Source of the DNA: Clostridiaceae bacterium
GTDB taxonomy: Bacteria; Bacillota; Clostridia; DSM-8532
Length of the DNA stretch: 35,518 bases
NCBI GenBank assembly: GCA_012839205.1
Contig: DUNT01000009.1
Span: 1 to 35,518, forward strand
Reading direction: 5' to 3'
The notes under the pieces are model-generated. The model was given only the letters and a program-made list of their open reading frames with translations. It had not been told where the DNA came from and did not search any database. Both the position numbers and the translations under genes were made by a program. Shown in pieces: positions 4,550 to 32,814 of the stretch (position 1 is the first letter of the stretch; each line of letters starts with the position of its first letter).

Positions 4550-4594
4550 AAAAAACCCTCGCACCGTCGATATATAATACAACAGGGACGAGGG
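4550..4594 (-). terminator. T-box terminator hairpin
   Basis: CCCTCGTCCC on the left arm pairs imperfectly with GACGGTGCGAGGG and is followed by TTTTTT (4550-4555) on the minus strand. The left arm overlaps the end of the antiterminator, as expected for mutually exclusive T-box structures. Confidence 0.9.
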
Positions 4595-4843
4595 ATATAC
4601 TCTACGCGTTACCACCCTATTTTATCTTTATTTCACAATAAAGACCTCACTAGGTTCAAACAAACCTTCGCCTGTAACGGGGCTGACCGTTACCTCCTAC
4701 TAAAAATTTTCAGAAGTACTGCTCGGGAGGGATTCGTTTTCATTGATCCTGCCAATTTACACCACCCATTGGCTCTCTTTAAGGATTTTGCTATGAAAAG
4801 CTGGCTCCTTCATTGCATTTATTCAGGGATTATTAAGTTATTG
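4550..4843 (-). promoter_or_regulatory. T-box leader of the ilvBNC-leuA operon
   Basis: On the minus strand the leader contains the T-box core GGGTGGTAACGCG (4605-4617). The UGGU there can pair with an ACCA tRNA end. A competing terminator follows. Further upstream, within stem I, is a perfect hairpin GCCAAT/ATTGGC with a GGTGGTGTAA loop, typical of the distal part of stem I. The 3' side of stem I reads CGAATCCCTCCCGAGC; by position the specifier could be ATC (isoleucine), but I could not fold the whole stem. Uncharged tRNA would favour the antiterminator and switch on branched-chain amino acid synthesis. The T-box call is firm; the specifier is tentative. Confidence 0.93.
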
Positions 4844-15444: not shown

Positions 15445-15446
15445 AT

Positions 15447-15527
15447 GTCATCCTGAGCAAAGCGAAGGATCTTCCCACAATACTAAAGAAGATCCTTCAT
15501 TCCACTTTTGCTACATTTCAGAATGAC
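15447..15527. repeat. Palindromic intergenic repeat element, copy 1
   Basis: An 81-base element whose ends are GTCATCCTGA and TCAGAATGAC. Its inner arms GAAGGATCTTC and GAAGATCCTTC are perfectly complementary, with AGCAAA/TTTGCT between. The whole can fold as one long hairpin. Its termini recur in the larger element at 24249. It fills the space between the convergent ychF and opuAA genes and ends two bases before the opuAA stop codon, so it probably also acts as a transcript end. Similar GTCATCCTGAGC repeats are common between genes in many bacteria. Confidence 0.8.
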
Positions 15528-15529
15528 TT

Positions 15530-22182: not shown

Positions 22183-24084
22183 CTACAATATTCTCTTAAA
22201 CCTTTTTTCAAATTCTTTCTTTTCCATCGTTAGGATTACCGGCCTTCCATGGACGCAAGTATAAGGGTTTTCCAACGCACATAAATTCTCTATTAAACCA
22301 AGAATTTCTTCCTTTGAAAGAGGTCTGTTTGCTTTTAATGCACCTTTGCATGAAATCATATAAAGTGTCTCATCGCTGATATCACTTTGGGCCGATCCGG
22401 TTTGAATCCAACGATCCAGTATTTCATTGAAGTCACTGACACTAAAACTGTTTTCGTAAAAATCAGGTATACTCCTGATTATAACTGTATTGGAACCAAA
22501 TGCTTCTATCTCGAATCCTATGCTTTGAAACGCAGATTGTTTTTCCATGACAAAATCATACTCATTAGCAGTTAGTTTGATAATGACCGGTTCAAGCATA
22601 ATCTGAGAAAAGTTCTGATTATTTGCATGCCTTTGCTTTATGTACTCATATCTTATTCTCTCATGAGCTGCATGCTGGTCAATTATATACAGATTGTTCC
22701 CACACTGTAAAAGTATATACGTATCAAAAACCTGCCCGACAATTGTTGCATTCAACAGCTCCTGCAATGATGCTTTTTCGGTTGTCTGTATGGTTTCTTT
22801 TAAAGTACCAATTTCCTGAGATGCCTTGGTTTCTTCAATAATCTCATTTTCTGTAATATAGTGAGTTTCTTTATAGCACTTTTTTTCTATTTCACCGGGT
22901 ACATTACAATCTTGTTCTTCTATTTTAACGGGTATCTCCGGCATTCTGTCAAACAGTGTAGATTGTTTTGGGAATTCAGCACTTGTTTCAGGCCGGGTTT
23001 TTCTATTAACTCTAGGTTCCATTAGAGGGATATTTACCGGTGGGTTATTTTTTACCTCTATCTCACTGGTTTTGGGCTCAAACTCTCTTATTCCTGTTTC
23101 TCTCAAGAGGGTGCCTTTTACACCATGGTAAACAGCGCTGTAAACCGAGCTCTCATTTACAAAACGTACTTCAAGTTTTTGTGGATGTACGTTTACATCG
23201 TAGCTTTCAGCCGGAGATTTAAGATGAAGCACGCAAAAAGGGAACTTGTTTTGCATGAGCATGGTTTTATAGGCATCCTCCAGCGCTTTTGTTATAACCT
23301 TACTCTTAATGTATCTTCCGTTAAGAAATATAGACTGATTATTTCTGTTTCCTCTGGCGATTTCAGGCTTACCTATAAAACCTTCAAGCACAAAGCCTTC
23401 ACTTTTATAGCTGACAGGAAGAACAGATTTTGCAATATCCTTGCCAAAAATACTGTATATAACACTTAATAAATCATGATTACCCGGTGTATGTAATTGT
23501 GTGCGGTTATTCTGAATAAATTTAAAGGATATTCCCGGGTTAGCAAGGGCAAGACGCTGTATTATGTCAGAAATATACCCTGCTTCGGTACTGTCTCTTT
23601 TCAGGAATTTATATCGGGCCGGGGTATTGTAAAAAAGGTTTCTGACTATAAAACTTGTTCCTTTTGGGCTGCCGGTTTGGTGAATAGATATAACCCGTCC
23701 ACCTTCCATTTTAAGTGTTGTGCCTGTTAAAGCATCCTCAGTTTTTGATGTTACTTCCAATTGAGATACAGAAGCAATAGAAGCAAGCGCCTCTCCACGA
23801 AAGCCCATGGTTGAAAGGTCCTCTAAATCTTCAATACGTCTTATTTTGCTGGTGGCATGACGTTCAAATGCAAATTCCAGATCATCTTTTTCTATACCAC
23901 TGCCGTTATCCGTAACACGGATATATGATATGCCGCCATTTCTAATTTCTACAGTAATCTGAGTAGCGCCGGCATCAATGGAGTTTTCCACCATTTCCTT
24001 GACGACCGAGGCCGGTCTTTCAATTACTTCACCCGCCGCTATTTGATTGGCTGTATTTTCATCCAGAATAACAATTTTACTCAT
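22183..24084 (-). CDS. mutL: DNA mismatch repair protein MutL (endonuclease type)
   Basis: ATP-driven partner of MutS. The 633 residues begin with a GHKL ATPase (EMVENSIDAGA, DNGSGI, TMGFRGEAL, GTSF). A variable linker spans about 330-440. The C-terminal dimerisation domain contains the metal-dependent nicking motif DQHAAHERIRYE, plus SCKGA and CVHGRPV, so this is the nicking form used by bacteria without MutH. I start at the ATG at 24084, with GGGAG six bases upstream; the frame extends to a TTG at 24123, which would add 13 residues that break the family opening MSKIVILDENTANQIAAGEV. It is separated from mutS by 0.5 kb of repeats. Confidence 0.96.
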   Translation of the reverse strand: MSKIVILDENTANQIAAGEVIERPASVVKEMVENSIDAGATQITVEIRNGGISYIRVTDNGSGIEKDDLEFAFERHATSKIRRIEDLEDLSTMGFRGEALASIASVSQLEVTSKTEDALTGTTLKMEGGRVISIHQTGSPKGTSFIVRNLFYNTPARYKFLKRDSTEAGYISDIIQRLALANPGISFKFIQNNRTQLHTPGNHDLLSVIYSIFGKDIAKSVLPVSYKSEGFVLEGFIGKPEIARGNRNNQSIFLNGRYIKSKVITKALEDAYKTMLMQNKFPFCVLHLKSPAESYDVNVHPQKLEVRFVNESSVYSAVYHGVKGTLLRETGIREFEPKTSEIEVKNNPPVNIPLMEPRVNRKTRPETSAEFPKQSTLFDRMPEIPVKIEEQDCNVPGEIEKKCYKETHYITENEIIEETKASQEIGTLKETIQTTEKASLQELLNATIVGQVFDTYILLQCGNNLYIIDQHAAHERIRYEYIKQRHANNQNFSQIMLEPVIIKLTANEYDFVMEKQSAFQSIGFEIEAFGSNTVIIRSIPDFYENSFSVSDFNEILDRWIQTGSAQSDISDETLYMISCKGALKANRPLSKEEILGLIENLCALENPYTCVHGRPVILTMEKKEFEKRFKRIL

Positions 24085-24123
24085 ATGATTCTCCCTGATT
24101 ACAATACCTTTATAGTGAGTCAA

Positions 24124-24248
24124 ATGCGCCGCTCCATGAATCCATCAATTGGGAGGTGAGAGATTCGAGGTTTGAAGTATGAAATCGTATAAAAATAATA
24201 CGAGCAAACATCTCACTTCTCACATCCCATCTCTCACATCACGTTATT
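24124..24248. other. Intergenic stretch beside the repeat element
   Basis: Holds no gene. It contains a TCGTAT/ATACGA hairpin with an AT loop and a CT-rich stretch of near-repeats (ATCTCACTTCTCACATCCC, then ATCTCTCACATCA). It reads like degraded intergenic repeat sequence rather than coding or regulatory DNA. No clear mutL promoter was found here. Confidence 0.5.
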
Positions 24249-24344
24249 GTCATCCTGAGCGTAGCGCGGCCCTCCTTTATGTCATCCTGAGCGTAGCACA
24301 GCCCTCCTTTATGTCATCCTGAGCGTAGCACAGCCCTCCTTTAT
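24249..24344. repeat. Three abutting 32-base tandem units
   Basis: Units at 24249-24280, 24281-24312 and 24313-24344 each start GTCATCCTGAGCGTAGC and end CCTCCTTTAT. Units 2 and 3 are identical; unit 1 differs at two bases. A fourth unit starts at 24345 and diverges after 19 bases. Confidence 0.93.
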
Positions 24345-24548
24345 GTCATCCTGAGCGTAGCGCAGCGGAGCCGAAGGATCTTCTTACGTTAAACAATGGA
24401 GCGGCTGCAGCCCGCTGCGATTTAGCGCTCCATCTCCAACATCTAGTTTCTAGTCGCGCCCGCTACTTAAGTCCATGCTCCGCTTTAAATCGCAGCAGCT
24501 ACGCTGCTTTATTACGTTTGTTCAAGCTGTCGTCCTGATCAGAATGAC
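24249..24548. repeat. Composite repeat element between mutS and mutL, copy 2
   Basis: About 300 bases bounded by GTCATCCTGA on the left and CAGAATGAC on the right, the same ends as the 81-base element at 15447. Internally it has a tandem array (24249-24344) and a fourth unit running into GAAGGATCTTC at 24373-24383. It also has inverted pairs ATGGAGC (24396-24402)/GCTCCAT (24427-24433) and GCTGCGATTTA (24414-24424)/TAAATCGCAGC (24486-24496). It is much more GC-rich than its surroundings. No open reading frame of note. It looks like a non-autonomous, MITE- or REP-like insertion that split the mutS-mutL pair. Confidence 0.75.
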
Positions 24549-24587
24549 AATGGAAGGCAAAATAGCAAGTGGGCGAGTTTTTATAAC

Positions 24588-27191
24588 TTACTTCAATTTT
24601 TGCTGCAGGCTGTAAATCTTGTTCAGTGCATCCAGCGGAGTCAATAATGACGGATCTAACATCTTTAGTTCATCTATAACGTCTCTCTCTGCCTTTGAAA
24701 GCGTACTTGATGTAAATAGGTCAAGCTGGCCATCTACTGGCTTTTGTTTGCGTTTTTTTGATGTTTTGTTAATATCAGCCTCATCCAGCTCTTCTAAAAT
24801 CATTTTCGCCCGTTCAAGCACATTAGCCGGTATTCCGGCAAGCCCTGCCACCTCAACACCATAGCTCTTGTCAGCTCCACCACGCATTAACTTTCTTAAG
24901 AAAATAATATCATTTCCTTTCTTACGGACCGAAACACAATAGTTCTTTATTCCGTGCAGCTTTTCCTCAAGCTCAGTAAGTTCATGATAATGTGTGGCAA
25001 AAAGAGTCCTGCATCCCAGTTTTCCTTTATCATTTATATATTCTATGACAGCCCATGCTATACTGAGGCCATCATATGTACTGGTTCCGCGCCCTATCTC
25101 GTCCAGTATCAGGAGGCTATTAGAAGTGGCATTCTCAAGAATATTGGCCACTTCTGTCATTTCAACCATAAAGGTACTTTGTCCTGAAGCTAAATCATCG
25201 GATGCCCCTATTCTGGTAAAAATTCTGTCCACTAATCCGATCCTGGCATATTCTGCCGGAACAAAGCATCCTGCCTGCGCCATTAAGGTAATAAGGGCAA
25301 CCTGTCTCATGTAGGTGGATTTTCCCGCCATATTGGGACCTGTTATTATGCCGATCCTGTTCTCATCATTATCAAGCCAGGTATCGTTAGGCACAAACTG
25401 AGTATCCCCCAGCATTTTCTCCACAACAGGGTGGCGGCCATTTTTAATCTCGATAGTTCCTCCGTCATAAACAACCGGACGTATATATTGATTACGGTCG
25501 GCAACATCTGCATAGGAGCAGAGAGCATCGATTACTGATATACAGTCAGCAGTGGTTTTCAGCCTTTTAACGTGCTGAGAAACTGTATCTCTGATCTGAC
25601 AAAAAAGCTCATATTCCCGCTGGACAACCTTAGACTCAGCTCCTAATATTTTATCCTCCAGGCTCTTGAGCTTGTCCATTGTATAGCGCTCACTATTGAC
25701 CAGTGTTTGTTTTCTCATGTAATCATCAGGTACCAGACCAATATTTGCCTTGGTTACCTCTATGTAATATCCAAAGTTATCGTTATAACGTATTTTTAAG
25801 CTTTTAATTCCTGTTCTTTCCCGCTCCGCAGCCTCAAGCTCGGAAATCCAAGCCTTTCCCTCTGTAGAGGCATGTCTGTATTCATCGACTAATTCGTCAT
25901 AGCCATCCTTAATTATCCCGCCCTCCTTAACAGACAAGGGTGCTTCCTCATCAATGGAAGCATCAATCAGAGCATATATATCTTCTAATAAATCTAGCCT
26001 CTCATACAACTGCCGGTTGTAATCGGCCTTCAGGTCTTGTATTAGCTCTTTTATATACGGCAGTTTAGACAATGAAGAATTGATTGCCAAAAGATCTCTG
26101 GCATTAATAGTGCCGAAAACTAATTTTGAAGTCAGTCTCTCGATGTCATAGACGCCTCTCAAAAGCTCCATAAGTTCACTTCTTATCATGAAACTTTCAT
26201 GAAACTCAGCAACCGCATCCAGTCTAAGATTTATCTCATCAACATCCAATAATGGCTGCTCAATCCAATGTCGCAGCTTTCTGCCTCCCATTGATGTTGA
26301 GGTCTTGTCCAGTACCCATAAAAGTGAACCTTTTTTCTTCCCGTCCCTCATGGTTTCAGTAATCTCCAGGCTTCTTCTGGAGGCGCTGTCCAACATCATG
26401 TATTGCTCTATTTTATATATTCTGATTTTTTCAATATGCTTTAAATCAACCTTTTGGGTTGACTCGAGATAGGTTATCAGTGCGCCCGAAGCACATTGAG
26501 CCAAGTCAAGATTACTAAACGGGTTTTCATTGAAAACTTCAATTAACTTATCCTGGCTGTTTTTTAGTGTAAAATGCTCCCTGTCAATTATTGAAGGGTC
26601 GGTTTTCAGATAATCTTTAAAGTATGCTTTGTATTCCGGTCTTGTGGTAAGTTCCTCATTTACGATTATTTCCGTGGGCTTGTATCTTGAGATTTCATCA
26701 ACAAGCTTTCTCATGGAGCTTCCCCAGGTAATCTGTGTAGAGTAAAATTCACCCGTTGAAACATCCACAACAGCAATACCAAAGTATATTTGCTGACAAT
26801 ATATAGCCATTAGGTAATTGTTTTTCTTCTCCTCCAGCATAGCAGGGTCAATAACTGTACCAGGTGTTATTACCCTGGTTACATCCCTTTTCACAATTCC
26901 CTTAGCTGTTGACGGATCTTCAATTTGTTCACAAATTGCAACCTTATAACCCTTTGCAATAAGCCGGGAGATATAGGTGTGGGCTGCATGATACGGAACA
27001 CCGCACATAGGTGCACGCTCTTCCATACCACAGTCCCTTCCCGTCAGAGTGATCTCAAGCTCCCTTGACGCAAGCTCGGCATCAGAAAAGAACATTTCGT
27101 AAAAGTCTCCCAGTCTGAAAAACAGGATACAGTCTTTATATCGTTCTTTTATCTCCATATACTGCTGCATCATAGGAGTCAGTTTAGCCAA
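24588..27191 (-). CDS. mutS: DNA mismatch repair ATPase MutS
   Basis: Recognises base mismatches and small loops and recruits MutL. The 867 residues include the mismatch-wedge motif GDFYEMF (Phe30-x-Glu32), connector and lever domains, and the C-terminal ABC ATPase with Walker A GPNMAGKST, signature region, Walker B LLILDEIGRGTSTYDG and ATHYHEL. I choose the TTG at 27191, because GGAGG lies eight bases upstream and the protein then begins MAKLTPMMQQYMEIK as in relatives; that start overlaps the miaB stop by eight bases. The longer frame to 27233 would lie inside miaB. Confidence 0.97.
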   Translation of the reverse strand: MAKLTPMMQQYMEIKERYKDCILFFRLGDFYEMFFSDAELASRELEITLTGRDCGMEERAPMCGVPYHAAHTYISRLIAKGYKVAICEQIEDPSTAKGIVKRDVTRVITPGTVIDPAMLEEKKNNYLMAIYCQQIYFGIAVVDVSTGEFYSTQITWGSSMRKLVDEISRYKPTEIIVNEELTTRPEYKAYFKDYLKTDPSIIDREHFTLKNSQDKLIEVFNENPFSNLDLAQCASGALITYLESTQKVDLKHIEKIRIYKIEQYMMLDSASRRSLEITETMRDGKKKGSLLWVLDKTSTSMGGRKLRHWIEQPLLDVDEINLRLDAVAEFHESFMIRSELMELLRGVYDIERLTSKLVFGTINARDLLAINSSLSKLPYIKELIQDLKADYNRQLYERLDLLEDIYALIDASIDEEAPLSVKEGGIIKDGYDELVDEYRHASTEGKAWISELEAAERERTGIKSLKIRYNDNFGYYIEVTKANIGLVPDDYMRKQTLVNSERYTMDKLKSLEDKILGAESKVVQREYELFCQIRDTVSQHVKRLKTTADCISVIDALCSYADVADRNQYIRPVVYDGGTIEIKNGRHPVVEKMLGDTQFVPNDTWLDNDENRIGIITGPNMAGKSTYMRQVALITLMAQAGCFVPAEYARIGLVDRIFTRIGASDDLASGQSTFMVEMTEVANILENATSNSLLILDEIGRGTSTYDGLSIAWAVIEYINDKGKLGCRTLFATHYHELTELEEKLHGIKNYCVSVRKKGNDIIFLRKLMRGGADKSYGVEVAGLAGIPANVLERAKMILEELDEADINKTSKKRKQKPVDGQLDLFTSSTLSKAERDVIDELKMLDPSLLTPLDALNKIYSLQQKLK

Positions 27192-28662
27192 GTTTTTTTC
27201 CTCCCCTTCCTTCCAGCCAGAAAGCACCGGCACGAATAATGTCTACATAAACAGTGTCACCTTTATTTACATTCTCGGCCTTGAAGTTAACCAGGCGGTT
27301 TGAGCGGGTACGTCCACTGAGCATTTCAGGATTATTCTTACTTGGCCCGTCTACTAAAACCTCCACAGATTTACCTTCAAATTTTTTAGCTAAATCTGTG
27401 GCTATTTCGGTTTGAAGATCCACCAGCTTTTTGAACCGTGCACTGATAACCCCGGAAGGAATATCCTGCTCAAGTTTTGCCGCAGGTGTTCCTTTTCGGG
27501 GAGAATAAATAAACATATATGCTGCATCAAAACCTACTTTTTTAACTACATCCAAAGTGTCTTCAAAGTCTTCCACAGTCTCCCCGGGAAAACCAACAAT
27601 AATATCAGTGGTAAGGGCAATCTCCGGGATAGCAGCTTTAATTCTGGATACTAATTCTAAATAGGTTTCTTTTGTATATCTTCTGTTCATTTTTTCCAGG
27701 ATACGACTGCTGCCGGACTGAAACGGCAGATGCAGATGATTACATACTTTTTTGCAAGTTTTCATAGCCTCGATAAGGCTATCTGAAAGATCCTTCGGGT
27801 GAGAGGTCATAAATCTTACTCTCTCAATTCCCTCAATATCTTCAATTGCATAAAGAAGCCTTGCAAACAGATCTTTTTCTCCGAGATCATTGCCGTAGGA
27901 ATTAACGTTCTGTCCCAACAGAGTAATCTCCTTGCAGCCATCTTCTGCAAGCACTTTTATCTCTGCCAGAACATCATTAATATCCCGACTTCTTTCCCTG
28001 CCCCTTACATGGGGCACAATGCAATATGAACAAAAATTATTGCAACCAAGAATAATACTGACCCACGCTTTATGTTTATCAGTACGTTTTATAGGCAGCT
28101 CTTCCACAACTTTATCTTCTTTTTCCCATACCTCAAAAACACGTTTCTTACCAGTAATATAACGATATAGAAGCTGGGGCAGTGTGTGTATATTATGAGT
28201 TCCAAATACAATTTTAACATTATGATATGACTTTCTTATTTTTTCTACCACATGGGACTGCTGCATCATACACCCACAGGCAATTATAAAGGAGCCATTT
28301 TCTTCACATTCTCCTGAAAGCGCGCCTATATGCCCATAAATCCGTTCTTCGGCATTCTCTCTTACACAGCAGGTGACAAATACAATTACATCTGCAGGTT
28401 TGTCTTTCGAAACCTCCTCAAAACCCATATCAGTGAGCATTCCGGCAATGGTTTCCGAATCCCGCTCATTCATTTGGCACCCGAATATTTCTATTTTAAA
28501 TTTTTTCGTTTTACCTGTTTCCAGGGTATAAGCTGTGTTTTGATTCCTTATTTCCTCAACCCATTCAGAGAACTCCGGAGCATTATCTACACCCATTCCC
28601 CCCGATGGTTTTTTAAGCCTAAACCTGTCACCTGCATTATTTTTCTTTATATCCAAATTCAT
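27184..28662 (-). CDS. miaB: tRNA-2-methylthio-N6-dimethylallyladenosine synthase
   Basis: Radical-SAM methylthiotransferase that completes ms2i6A37 on tRNAs prepared by MiaA. It is 492 residues. The N-terminal UPF0004 domain supplies three cluster cysteines (FGCQMNERDSE, VTCCVRENAEE, IACGCMMQ). The radical-SAM site is CNNFCSYCIVPHVRGRE. A C-terminal TRAM domain (about 430-490) binds RNA. Relatives usually begin closer to the first Cys motif, so about 60 N-terminal residues are extra but typical of Clostridia. The start is uncertain: ATG at 28662 has AAAGGG only two bases away, while a TTG at 28656 is at better spacing. First gene of the mismatch-repair and tRNA-modification cluster. Confidence 0.94.
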   Translation of the reverse strand: MNLDIKKNNAGDRFRLKKPSGGMGVDNAPEFSEWVEEIRNQNTAYTLETGKTKKFKIEIFGCQMNERDSETIAGMLTDMGFEEVSKDKPADVIVFVTCCVRENAEERIYGHIGALSGECEENGSFIIACGCMMQQSHVVEKIRKSYHNVKIVFGTHNIHTLPQLLYRYITGKKRVFEVWEKEDKVVEELPIKRTDKHKAWVSIILGCNNFCSYCIVPHVRGRERSRDINDVLAEIKVLAEDGCKEITLLGQNVNSYGNDLGEKDLFARLLYAIEDIEGIERVRFMTSHPKDLSDSLIEAMKTCKKVCNHLHLPFQSGSSRILEKMNRRYTKETYLELVSRIKAAIPEIALTTDIIVGFPGETVEDFEDTLDVVKKVGFDAAYMFIYSPRKGTPAAKLEQDIPSGVISARFKKLVDLQTEIATDLAKKFEGKSVEVLVDGPSKNNPEMLSGRTRSNRLVNFKAENVNKGDTVYVDIIRAGAFWLEGRGGKKLG

Positions 28663-32684: not shown

Positions 32685-32704
32685 AATATAATCCTTCGAC
32701 ATCG

Positions 32705-32796
32705 TGCATTCCCTCCGCTGGTGCTAACCAGATCAGGTTCAAAATGGTCGGGATACAATCAATCCCCTCTCAGCCGCTTTGCGGCTCCCACATGCA
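32705..32796 (-). promoter_or_regulatory. TPP (THI-box) riboswitch
   Basis: On the minus strand the conserved blocks are in order: CTGAGAGGG (pyrimidine-binding loop), CCCGACC, AACCTGATCTGGTTAGCACC, and GCGGAGGGAATGCA. Outer P1 pairs TGCAT with ATGCA. High TPP should favour the downstream terminator and shut the importer operon. Confidence 0.96.
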
Positions 32797-32814
32797 ATAT
32801 ACTATTTTAAAGCT

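Follow-up and report, generated by a model that had tools for sequence, protein, structure and literature searches.

The Region Between mutL and mutS

The window, a stretch of 35,518 nucleotides that forms contig C103 of a 2.31-Mb genome (G000, 133 contigs), carries mutL (22183-24084) and mutS (24588-27233), both on the minus strand. The ATG at 24084 was taken as the start of mutL, for which the list of open reading frames has a TTG start at 24123. A mosaic of repeats sits in the gap of about 500 bp between the two genes. The earlier note had described a GC-rich composite repeat at this position, with three 32-bp units of which two are identical, two further inverted pairs and both termini in common with a simpler copy elsewhere in the window, and each of these features was recovered. 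The G+C content of 24249-24548 is 0.530, against 0.386 for the whole window. The simple copy, a pair of hairpins of the same family just past a ychF-like gene, was placed at 15446-15528 (plus strand), and it has the left terminus TGTCATCCTGAG and the right terminus TCAGAATGAC in common with the mosaic.

Read on the plus strand, the mosaic begins with a separate dispersed palindromic repeat, called 'A' here (24137-24247; arms 24153-24178 and 24215-24240), which abuts the array and for which the segment 24135-24250 gave 37 matches in the genome. It is followed by three truncated head units of 32 bp, a variant one at 24248-24279 and two identical ones at 24280-24311 and 24312-24343. Tandem Repeats Finder (TRF) places an array with a period of 32 at 24248-24366, scoring 217 with 3.7 copies and 96% matches. 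A fourth head, at 24344, runs on into an intact C-type hairpin end (24344-24382) with a TGTC tag and an ATCCT...AGGAT stem. Next comes an internal structured module of 145 bp (24383-24527; 33 genome matches for 24380-24530), which contains the inverted pairs GCTGCGATTTA (24414-24424) / TAAATCGCAGC (24486-24496) and ATGGAGCG (24396-24403) / CGCTCCAT (24426-24433). The right end (24528-24549) is a collapsed remnant in which a C head runs into an inverted T head (TGTCGTCCTGA/TCAGAATGACA); it lacks the interior that the copy at C12:34450 has. The left limit first drawn for the composite moves outwards to about 24137, at the 'A' repeat. We read the feature between mutS and mutL as non-autonomous copies of a TGTC-tagged, REP/BIME-like hairpin family, joined into a mosaic.

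At gathering score, Rfam gave no family at the window repeat or at the heads in 16 array stretches, and four matches elsewhere. Two Rfam matches above gathering score lie in the window itself, a T-box leader (4581-4822, minus strand) and a TPP riboswitch (32693-32801, minus strand).

Structure and Distribution of the Hairpin Family

The head sequence TGTCATCCTGAGCGNAGC occurs at 199 places in the 2.31-Mb genome with up to two mismatches and its reversed pattern at none, so the repeats cannot be put down to chance, and the proposal of a non-autonomous dispersed repeat is borne out. Intact hairpins number 187. The element is BIME-like: a typical copy pairs a C-type with a T-type hairpin, both TGTC-tagged, unequal and inverted to each other, around a short core, with the head starts about 70-80 bp apart. 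One variable pair of the stem covaries, being T-A in 79, C-G in 57 and T-G in 2 hairpins of G000 (136 of 138 T-A or C-G). Among the matches listed in 119 stretches from other bacteria the same pair was T-A in 133, C-G in 132, G-C in 7 and any other combination in 9 (272 of 281 hairpins with T-A, C-G or G-C). The outer stem of 5 bp is separated from a variable inner stem by a step of 2+2 unpaired nucleotides, whose letters would allow tandem G.A pairs. The inner stem contains 1.43 pairs in G000 against 0.66 after shuffling (sd 0.11), and 2.20 against 0.71 (sd 0.08) among the matches listed from other bacteria. The hairpin insert measures 6-26 nt and the tail, judged by eye, is CT or CTT. Clusters were intergenic in 63 of 66 cases, while open reading frames cover 0.77 of the fetched stretches.

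Two larger arrangements were also seen in G000. A longer second module (CATGCGTGCCGCTCAGGAATTTCATCC...) recurs at the T-type side of arrays (C14:78411, C8:2697, C124:23713), and at C64:5024 entire two-hairpin copies follow one another in tandem at a spacing of about 89 bp, joined by short linkers rich in pyrimidines.

The family is widespread but patchy. A search for two heads 6-24 nt apart returned at least 119 stretches from at least 96 assemblies, counted by accession prefix. Going by the record titles, we take the matches listed to come from Bacillota, Bacteroidota, Acidobacteriota, Chloroflexota, Pseudomonadota, Actinomycetota, Planctomycetota, Verrucomicrobiota, Gemmatimonadota, Nitrospinota, Eremiobacterota and others. 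As isolates such as Edaphobacter aggregans, Bifidobacterium pluvialisilvae and Sphingobacterium sp. CZ-2 are among the array bearers, mis-binned contigs of MAGs cannot explain everything. Within the phylum of the window the hairpin was found in 25 of 299 sampled genomes, and it was present in 11 of 61 relatives, with a patchy distribution within the genus. Contig C66 of G001, which belongs to the same genus, carries the same array as the Clostridiaceae MAG contig JAAYFU010000016.1.

Growth of the Tandem Arrays

Tandem heads occur at 77 places in 46 loci of G000 and the reversed pattern at none. The arrays have a clear polarity: 68 of the 69 runs of truncated heads (heads without the AAGRAT-like arm) in G000 end inwards in an intact hairpin, as do 148 of 159 among the matches listed in the 119 stretches from elsewhere, three runs at stretch ends being left out of the count. 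Growth at the outer end, which the earlier note had suggested, is in line with this polarity. At the one threshold applied, the outermost truncated head in G000 was worse than the innermost in 21 cases, better in 2 and tied in 11; in other bacteria the figures were 35, 8 and 23 among the matches listed, and past the second unit the decay of the heads is non-monotonic. Within a unit, the part that is shared ends before the apex of the hairpin in 41 of 55 cases here and in 92 of 136 elsewhere (among the matches listed), by a method that is blind to shared parts shorter than 12 nt.

The number of units varies, as had also been anticipated. In the part of the 37 'A' matches that was surveyed, the junction A|TGTC recurs with no extra unit (L286, L287, L289, where the head is cut, L294, C37, C12, C56 and C58), with one (L285, L293), with two (L291), with three in the window and with four (L288); five more 'A' copies, at L290, L292, C94, C55 and C35, lack this junction. 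Of 31 array loci of G001 that were compared, 15 align to stretches of G000 that bear repeats and make up 7.3% of its genome, and by eye the number and sequence of the units at these paired sites mostly differ. The sites thus seem to persist while the arrays turn over.

Plain replication slippage of the unit would produce an array without any enzyme. Units are indeed near-identical within an array, and linker identity is 0.83 within arrays against 0.44 between them. Local duplication of a head together with its flank is clear in a few other bacteria, for example at L154 and L170: elsewhere, among the matches listed, the unit is exactly the head plus the local flank in 8 of 136 arrays against 1.25 expected (4 of the 89 without a decayed head), and with one mismatch allowed in 19 against 4.95 expected (9 of 89). 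However, slippage alone leaves unexplained why runs end in an intact hairpin and why C-rich linkers are alike among the loci of G000, and flank-plus-head duplication accounts for none of the 29 arrays of G000 that have no decayed head upstream. In the window, the linker CCCTCCTTTA differs from the abutting flank CACGTTAT. These last two observations suggest that units probably also passed between loci. The simple slippage proposed earlier therefore agrees with the alikeness of units within an array but not with the linker of the window or with the clean arrays, and as a full account of the arrays we consider it possible, though doubtful.

The spacing of the units raises the question whether the array could be a series of protein-binding sites on one face of the DNA. 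In G000 the unit lengths cluster at 19-21 and 31-33 bp, close to two and three helical turns (R 0.56 at 10.5), and elsewhere a weak, nominally significant phasing was detected (R 0.22, p ~0.001, among the matches listed). Heads also differ less than the rest between neighbouring units elsewhere (0.071 against 0.137, among the matches listed), a difference that the way of detection favours. Yet in G000 the heads show no clear advantage over the remainder of the unit (0.118 against 0.139), and in other bacteria the lengths are spread broadly between 18 and 36, with maxima at 21 and 28 (among the matches listed). Helical phasing was not convincing outside G000, and an array of binding sites seems very unlikely.

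A Predicted GIY-YIG Nuclease Gene Between Hairpin Ends

Two frames of G000 match PF01541. One, of 614 codons, is presumably UvrC; the other, of 98 codons at C13:258-551, is the only small stand-alone GIY-YIG frame in the genome, and its protein, of 94 residues, scores 63.4 bits against a cut-off of 22.6. A T-type hairpin with its head at 227 bounds this gene on one side and a C-type hairpin in inverted orientation, with its head at 580, on the other; the whole spans C13:227-591. It occupies the position of the core in short copies, and its stop codon abuts the C-type hairpin.

Among the loci at hand, phmmer with the C13 protein added five strong matches (E 3.4e-20 or better), in G006 and in stretches titled Clostridia, Proteobacteria, Planctomycetota and Spartobacteria. 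With C13 included, all six distinct strong matches are flanked on either side by a tag no more than 170 bp away, four of them (those in the titled stretches) stemming from the array search and not from a gene search. The seven weak GIY-YIG matches (E 2e-8 or worse) have no heads except for a loose one at L308. A profile search of 398 genomes, which may not take in all 299 genomes of the hairpin sample, gave six strong (E 3e-42 or better) and 31 weak matches (1e-15 or worse). Five of the six genomes with a strong match are also in that sample, and all five contain hairpins (187, 10, 18, 69 and 4), against 25 of 299 overall. Of these six strong genes, all from the phylum of the window, five are tagged on one side or more within 170 bp and two on both, while both-side tags occur at none and one-side tags at two of the 20 weak loci that were scored out of 24. 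The other four (L362, L365, L369 and L371) were not placed by tblastn at 1e-3, and inspection of L365 by hand revealed no tag.

The linkage recurs in other collections and with two types of tagged hairpin, TGTCATYCTGAG hairpins and CGTCAT hairpins. In IMG/VR contigs, tags stand on both sides in 16 of 19 close relatives of the gene; for distant GIY-YIG genes the figure is 2 of 19, and for control intervals 8 of 570. Under a strict test for inverted hairpins the numbers fall to 6 of 19, 0 of 19 and 14 of 1170, and several of the failures have the repeats in opposite order, with the tags facing the gene, or imperfect stems; the orientation is thus not fixed. In the plasmid collection, tblastn matched 34 records, of which 15 were fetched, picked to spread over species. 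Here 9 of 15 passed the flank test against 33 of 450 controls; L344 and L345 fail it despite good hairpins, as the tag is not followed by AT. Among all loci of the flank test, L385, whose upstream flank is missing, was not counted. Inverted tagged hairpins within 150 bp on both sides were found in 8 of 15, against 9 of 600 control intervals. CGTC repeats stand on both sides in Azospirillum, Aeromonas, Rhizobium, one Shinella, Neorhizobium and Novosphingobium, and CGTC/TGTC flanks were seen in the other Shinella and in Sphingobium. In the other seven loci, inspection by eye showed TGTC heads on both sides in Planktothrix, dRS3-like repeats on both sides facing the GIY-YIG gene in Neisseria, related-looking hairpins in Spirosoma and S. 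meliloti, some on one side in Photobacterium and no tagged repeat at the GIY-YIG loci of R. tumorigenes and S. paeninsulae. All these counts come from loci that are related by descent and not independent. At L399 a tagged hairpin of the type CGTCATTGCGAGG...GAAGCAATCT lies beside the GIY-YIG gene, whose opposite flank carries an inverted look-alike, and this may be a third repeat family of the same kind.

The GIY-YIG group has invariant Tyr, Gly, Arg, Glu and Asn columns, and a model of the L199 protein predicted from four sequences, of moderate quality (pLDDT 79, pTM 0.66), resembles in Foldseek UPF0213 BH0048 (E 1.3e-3), Slx1 (0.078) and UvrC (0.10), all with E >0.001. As the Slx1 structure entry is titled as processing branched DNA, this predicted likeness would fit a role at hairpins or cruciforms. 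Searches with the GIY-YIG protein gave no match in phage records at E 1e-10, no useful match by sequence in the PDB and a weak sub-threshold match in NCBIfam. In an all-against-all comparison of 2888 open reading frames from the 119 array stretches, an ABC-transporter-like cluster ranked first among the matches listed; the GIY-YIG cluster stood lower, with 3 frames from 3 genomes that all lie within 1 kb of a head.

The gene could also be a passenger or a regular neighbour, with the repeats being spread by host replication and repair or by another transposase. A close match was found in only two of the 11 hairpin-bearing relatives (G000 and G006), leaving aside partial PF01541 matches in G001, G022 and G058. 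None was found, despite hairpins, in G001 (118 hairpins), G007 (64), G011 (54) and G026 (43). The orientation of the flanking tags varies, the match in G006 carries a stop, the frame at L142 looks broken near its start, and the gene at L171 lies between two-hairpin copies and not clearly between the ends of one copy. The presence of the gene in 2 of 11 relatives fits a passenger, and it also fits non-autonomous copies that outlive their enzyme. Against a passenger stands that the gene fills the core of the element in G000 with its stop codon against the hairpin, that the linkage recurs with two repeat types, and that distant GIY-YIG genes mostly lack it. We therefore consider a passenger unlikely, and favour the reading that the hairpin family has an autonomous form encoding the nuclease.

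Relation to Known Repeats and Nucleases

The closest described repeats are the CGTC-REPs, a superfamily that was surveyed in 2013, occurs in several phyla and includes dRS3 of Neisseria (Di Nocera et al., 2013; PMC3733652). Their unpaired CGTC/TGTC tag, their stem starting from AT and their intergenic location (PMC3733652) recall the family in the window, which has a TGTC tag within the published range (CGTC, with TGTC or CCTC variants) and a stem that starts with AT, and CGTC-type hairpins flank GIY-YIG genes of the same group. The published repeats have stems of 8-9 bp, loops of 4-5 nt and mostly a CCA tail; according to the survey they are mostly inverted dimers, clusters are rare, head-to-tail pairs negligible and transposase genes not associated, and the mode of movement was left open (PMC3733652). 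The family in the window differs in its 5-bp stem, 2+2 unpaired step, variable tip, CT or CTT tail and in the linked nuclease gene, which lies between tagged hairpins of both the TGTC and the CGTC type. Its arrangement is mixed, as inverted pairs are common (157 short ones in the stretches examined) and head-to-tail arrays are common as well (77 places).

As a dispersed unit of two inverted tagged hairpins with a proposed enzyme encoded elsewhere, the family also resembles BIMEs and the REPIN/RAYT system (REPtron), in which the tag is GTAG and the enzyme a Y1 HUH transposase; here the tag is TGTC and no linked Y1 transposase was found. Tandem REPIN clusters that take in flanks are known, and the clusters described in the sections considered here repeat whole REPs or REPINs (PMC3116915), whereas the family in the window piles half hairpins outside one end. 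The tag with its imperfect hairpin, the inverted pairs, the intergenic sites (63 of 66 clusters) and the presence of one Y1_Tnp gene in G000 would suit a classic REP/BIME moved by a RAYT. However, that gene has ends of its own (GGGGTCAGGC), none of the 29 Y1 loci of relatives contains a head with at most one mismatch, and 13 Y1 proteins gave no tblastn match in the 119 array stretches, among the matches listed. The REP-associated transposase that the earlier note had proposed to look for is thus disfavoured as the mobiliser by the other ends of the Y1 gene and the lack of heads at Y1 loci, and this explanation seems most improbable to us. The sole Y1_Tnp gene of G000 (L009, C59:8460-8786) lies between inverted GGGGTCAGGC ends, which fit the published TIRYT consensus GGGGWSAS.

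The nuclease itself shares the GIY-YIG domain, the invariant residues and a similar predicted fold with stand-alone nucleases such as UPF0213 and Slx1. Stand-alone GIY-YIG nucleases also include homing endonucleases and those of Penelope-like elements. Within the open PMC literature, no relevant paper was found that ties GIY-YIG proteins to REP hairpins, and the letters of the motif led to none except the 2013 CGTC survey.

Proposed Mechanism of Spread

Together, these observations led us to propose that the TGTC-tagged family probably has an autonomous form encoding a GIY-YIG nuclease that cuts tagged hairpins, with repair spreading copies and arrays. We lean, with less confidence, towards the wider reading that a dedicated clade of stand-alone GIY-YIG nucleases mobilises TGTC/CGTC REPs across many phyla and that the half-hairpin arrays are scars of repair. 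In the autonomous form, the core would be the gene for a stand-alone endonuclease of about 95 residues, which, with a predicted fold like that of UPF0213, Slx1 and UvrC nuclease domains, would cut at the tagged hairpins. Repair or copying of the cut would spread short copies, and repair at an existing end would add half-hairpin units just outside the intact hairpin. Arrays would then grow outwards, with the older units further out, and units could pass between loci. Cleavage, mobilisation and array growth by repair are what we infer from the repeats and their linkage to the gene. At mutS-mutL, a copy would have inserted and gained three units, and we propose no special role for it there.

If this holds, it would be a REP system in which a GIY-YIG enzyme takes the place of the HUH transposase, and a new enzyme type for bacterial DNA-only mobile elements. 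A small GIY-YIG gene between hairpins in several phyla offers one concrete, testable answer to how CGTC repeats move, and would help to account for a large class of repeats between genes, the array in the window among them.

Effects at the mutS-mutL Junction

The position of the array suggested earlier that it could uncouple mutL from mutS and act as a switch of mutability. About 500 bp of structured DNA parts the two genes, and the RNA fold is mildly better than that of shuffled sequences (z -1.99, 4 of 100 shuffles as good). Between 23900 and 24900, five terminator-like sites were predicted on both strands against 0.7 expected, one of them on the gene strand (24416-24400), and three promoter-like sites against 1.5 expected, which is not clearly above chance. 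The above-chance terminator-like sites and the mildly better fold make some polar effect on mutL possible; for uncoupling, the terminator-like site on the gene strand is weak evidence in favour, and the variability of the junction among relatives speaks against it. The comparison of the junction covers 12 of the 14 genomes in the genus. The gap measures just 19 bp in G011, the relative with the most similar MutL. In G001 it is 279 bp long and holds another array that points the same way, and in nine others it ranges from 28 to 341 bp, some with other inserts. Moreover, G000 has arrays at 45 other loci. A mutation switch at this site is therefore unlikely, and we give very little credence to any explanation of the array by an effect on mutS-mutL expression or mutability.

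The junctions of G006 and G007 (L205 and L206) contain other repeats, GGGACGGTCC-like, which indicates that the site takes up several kinds of repeat. The region around C54:16648 in G000 is near-identical to L250 in G011 (contig C47; about 100% in tblastx), although the MutL proteins of the two species are 80% identical, and this reflects either a recent transfer or a mis-binned contig.
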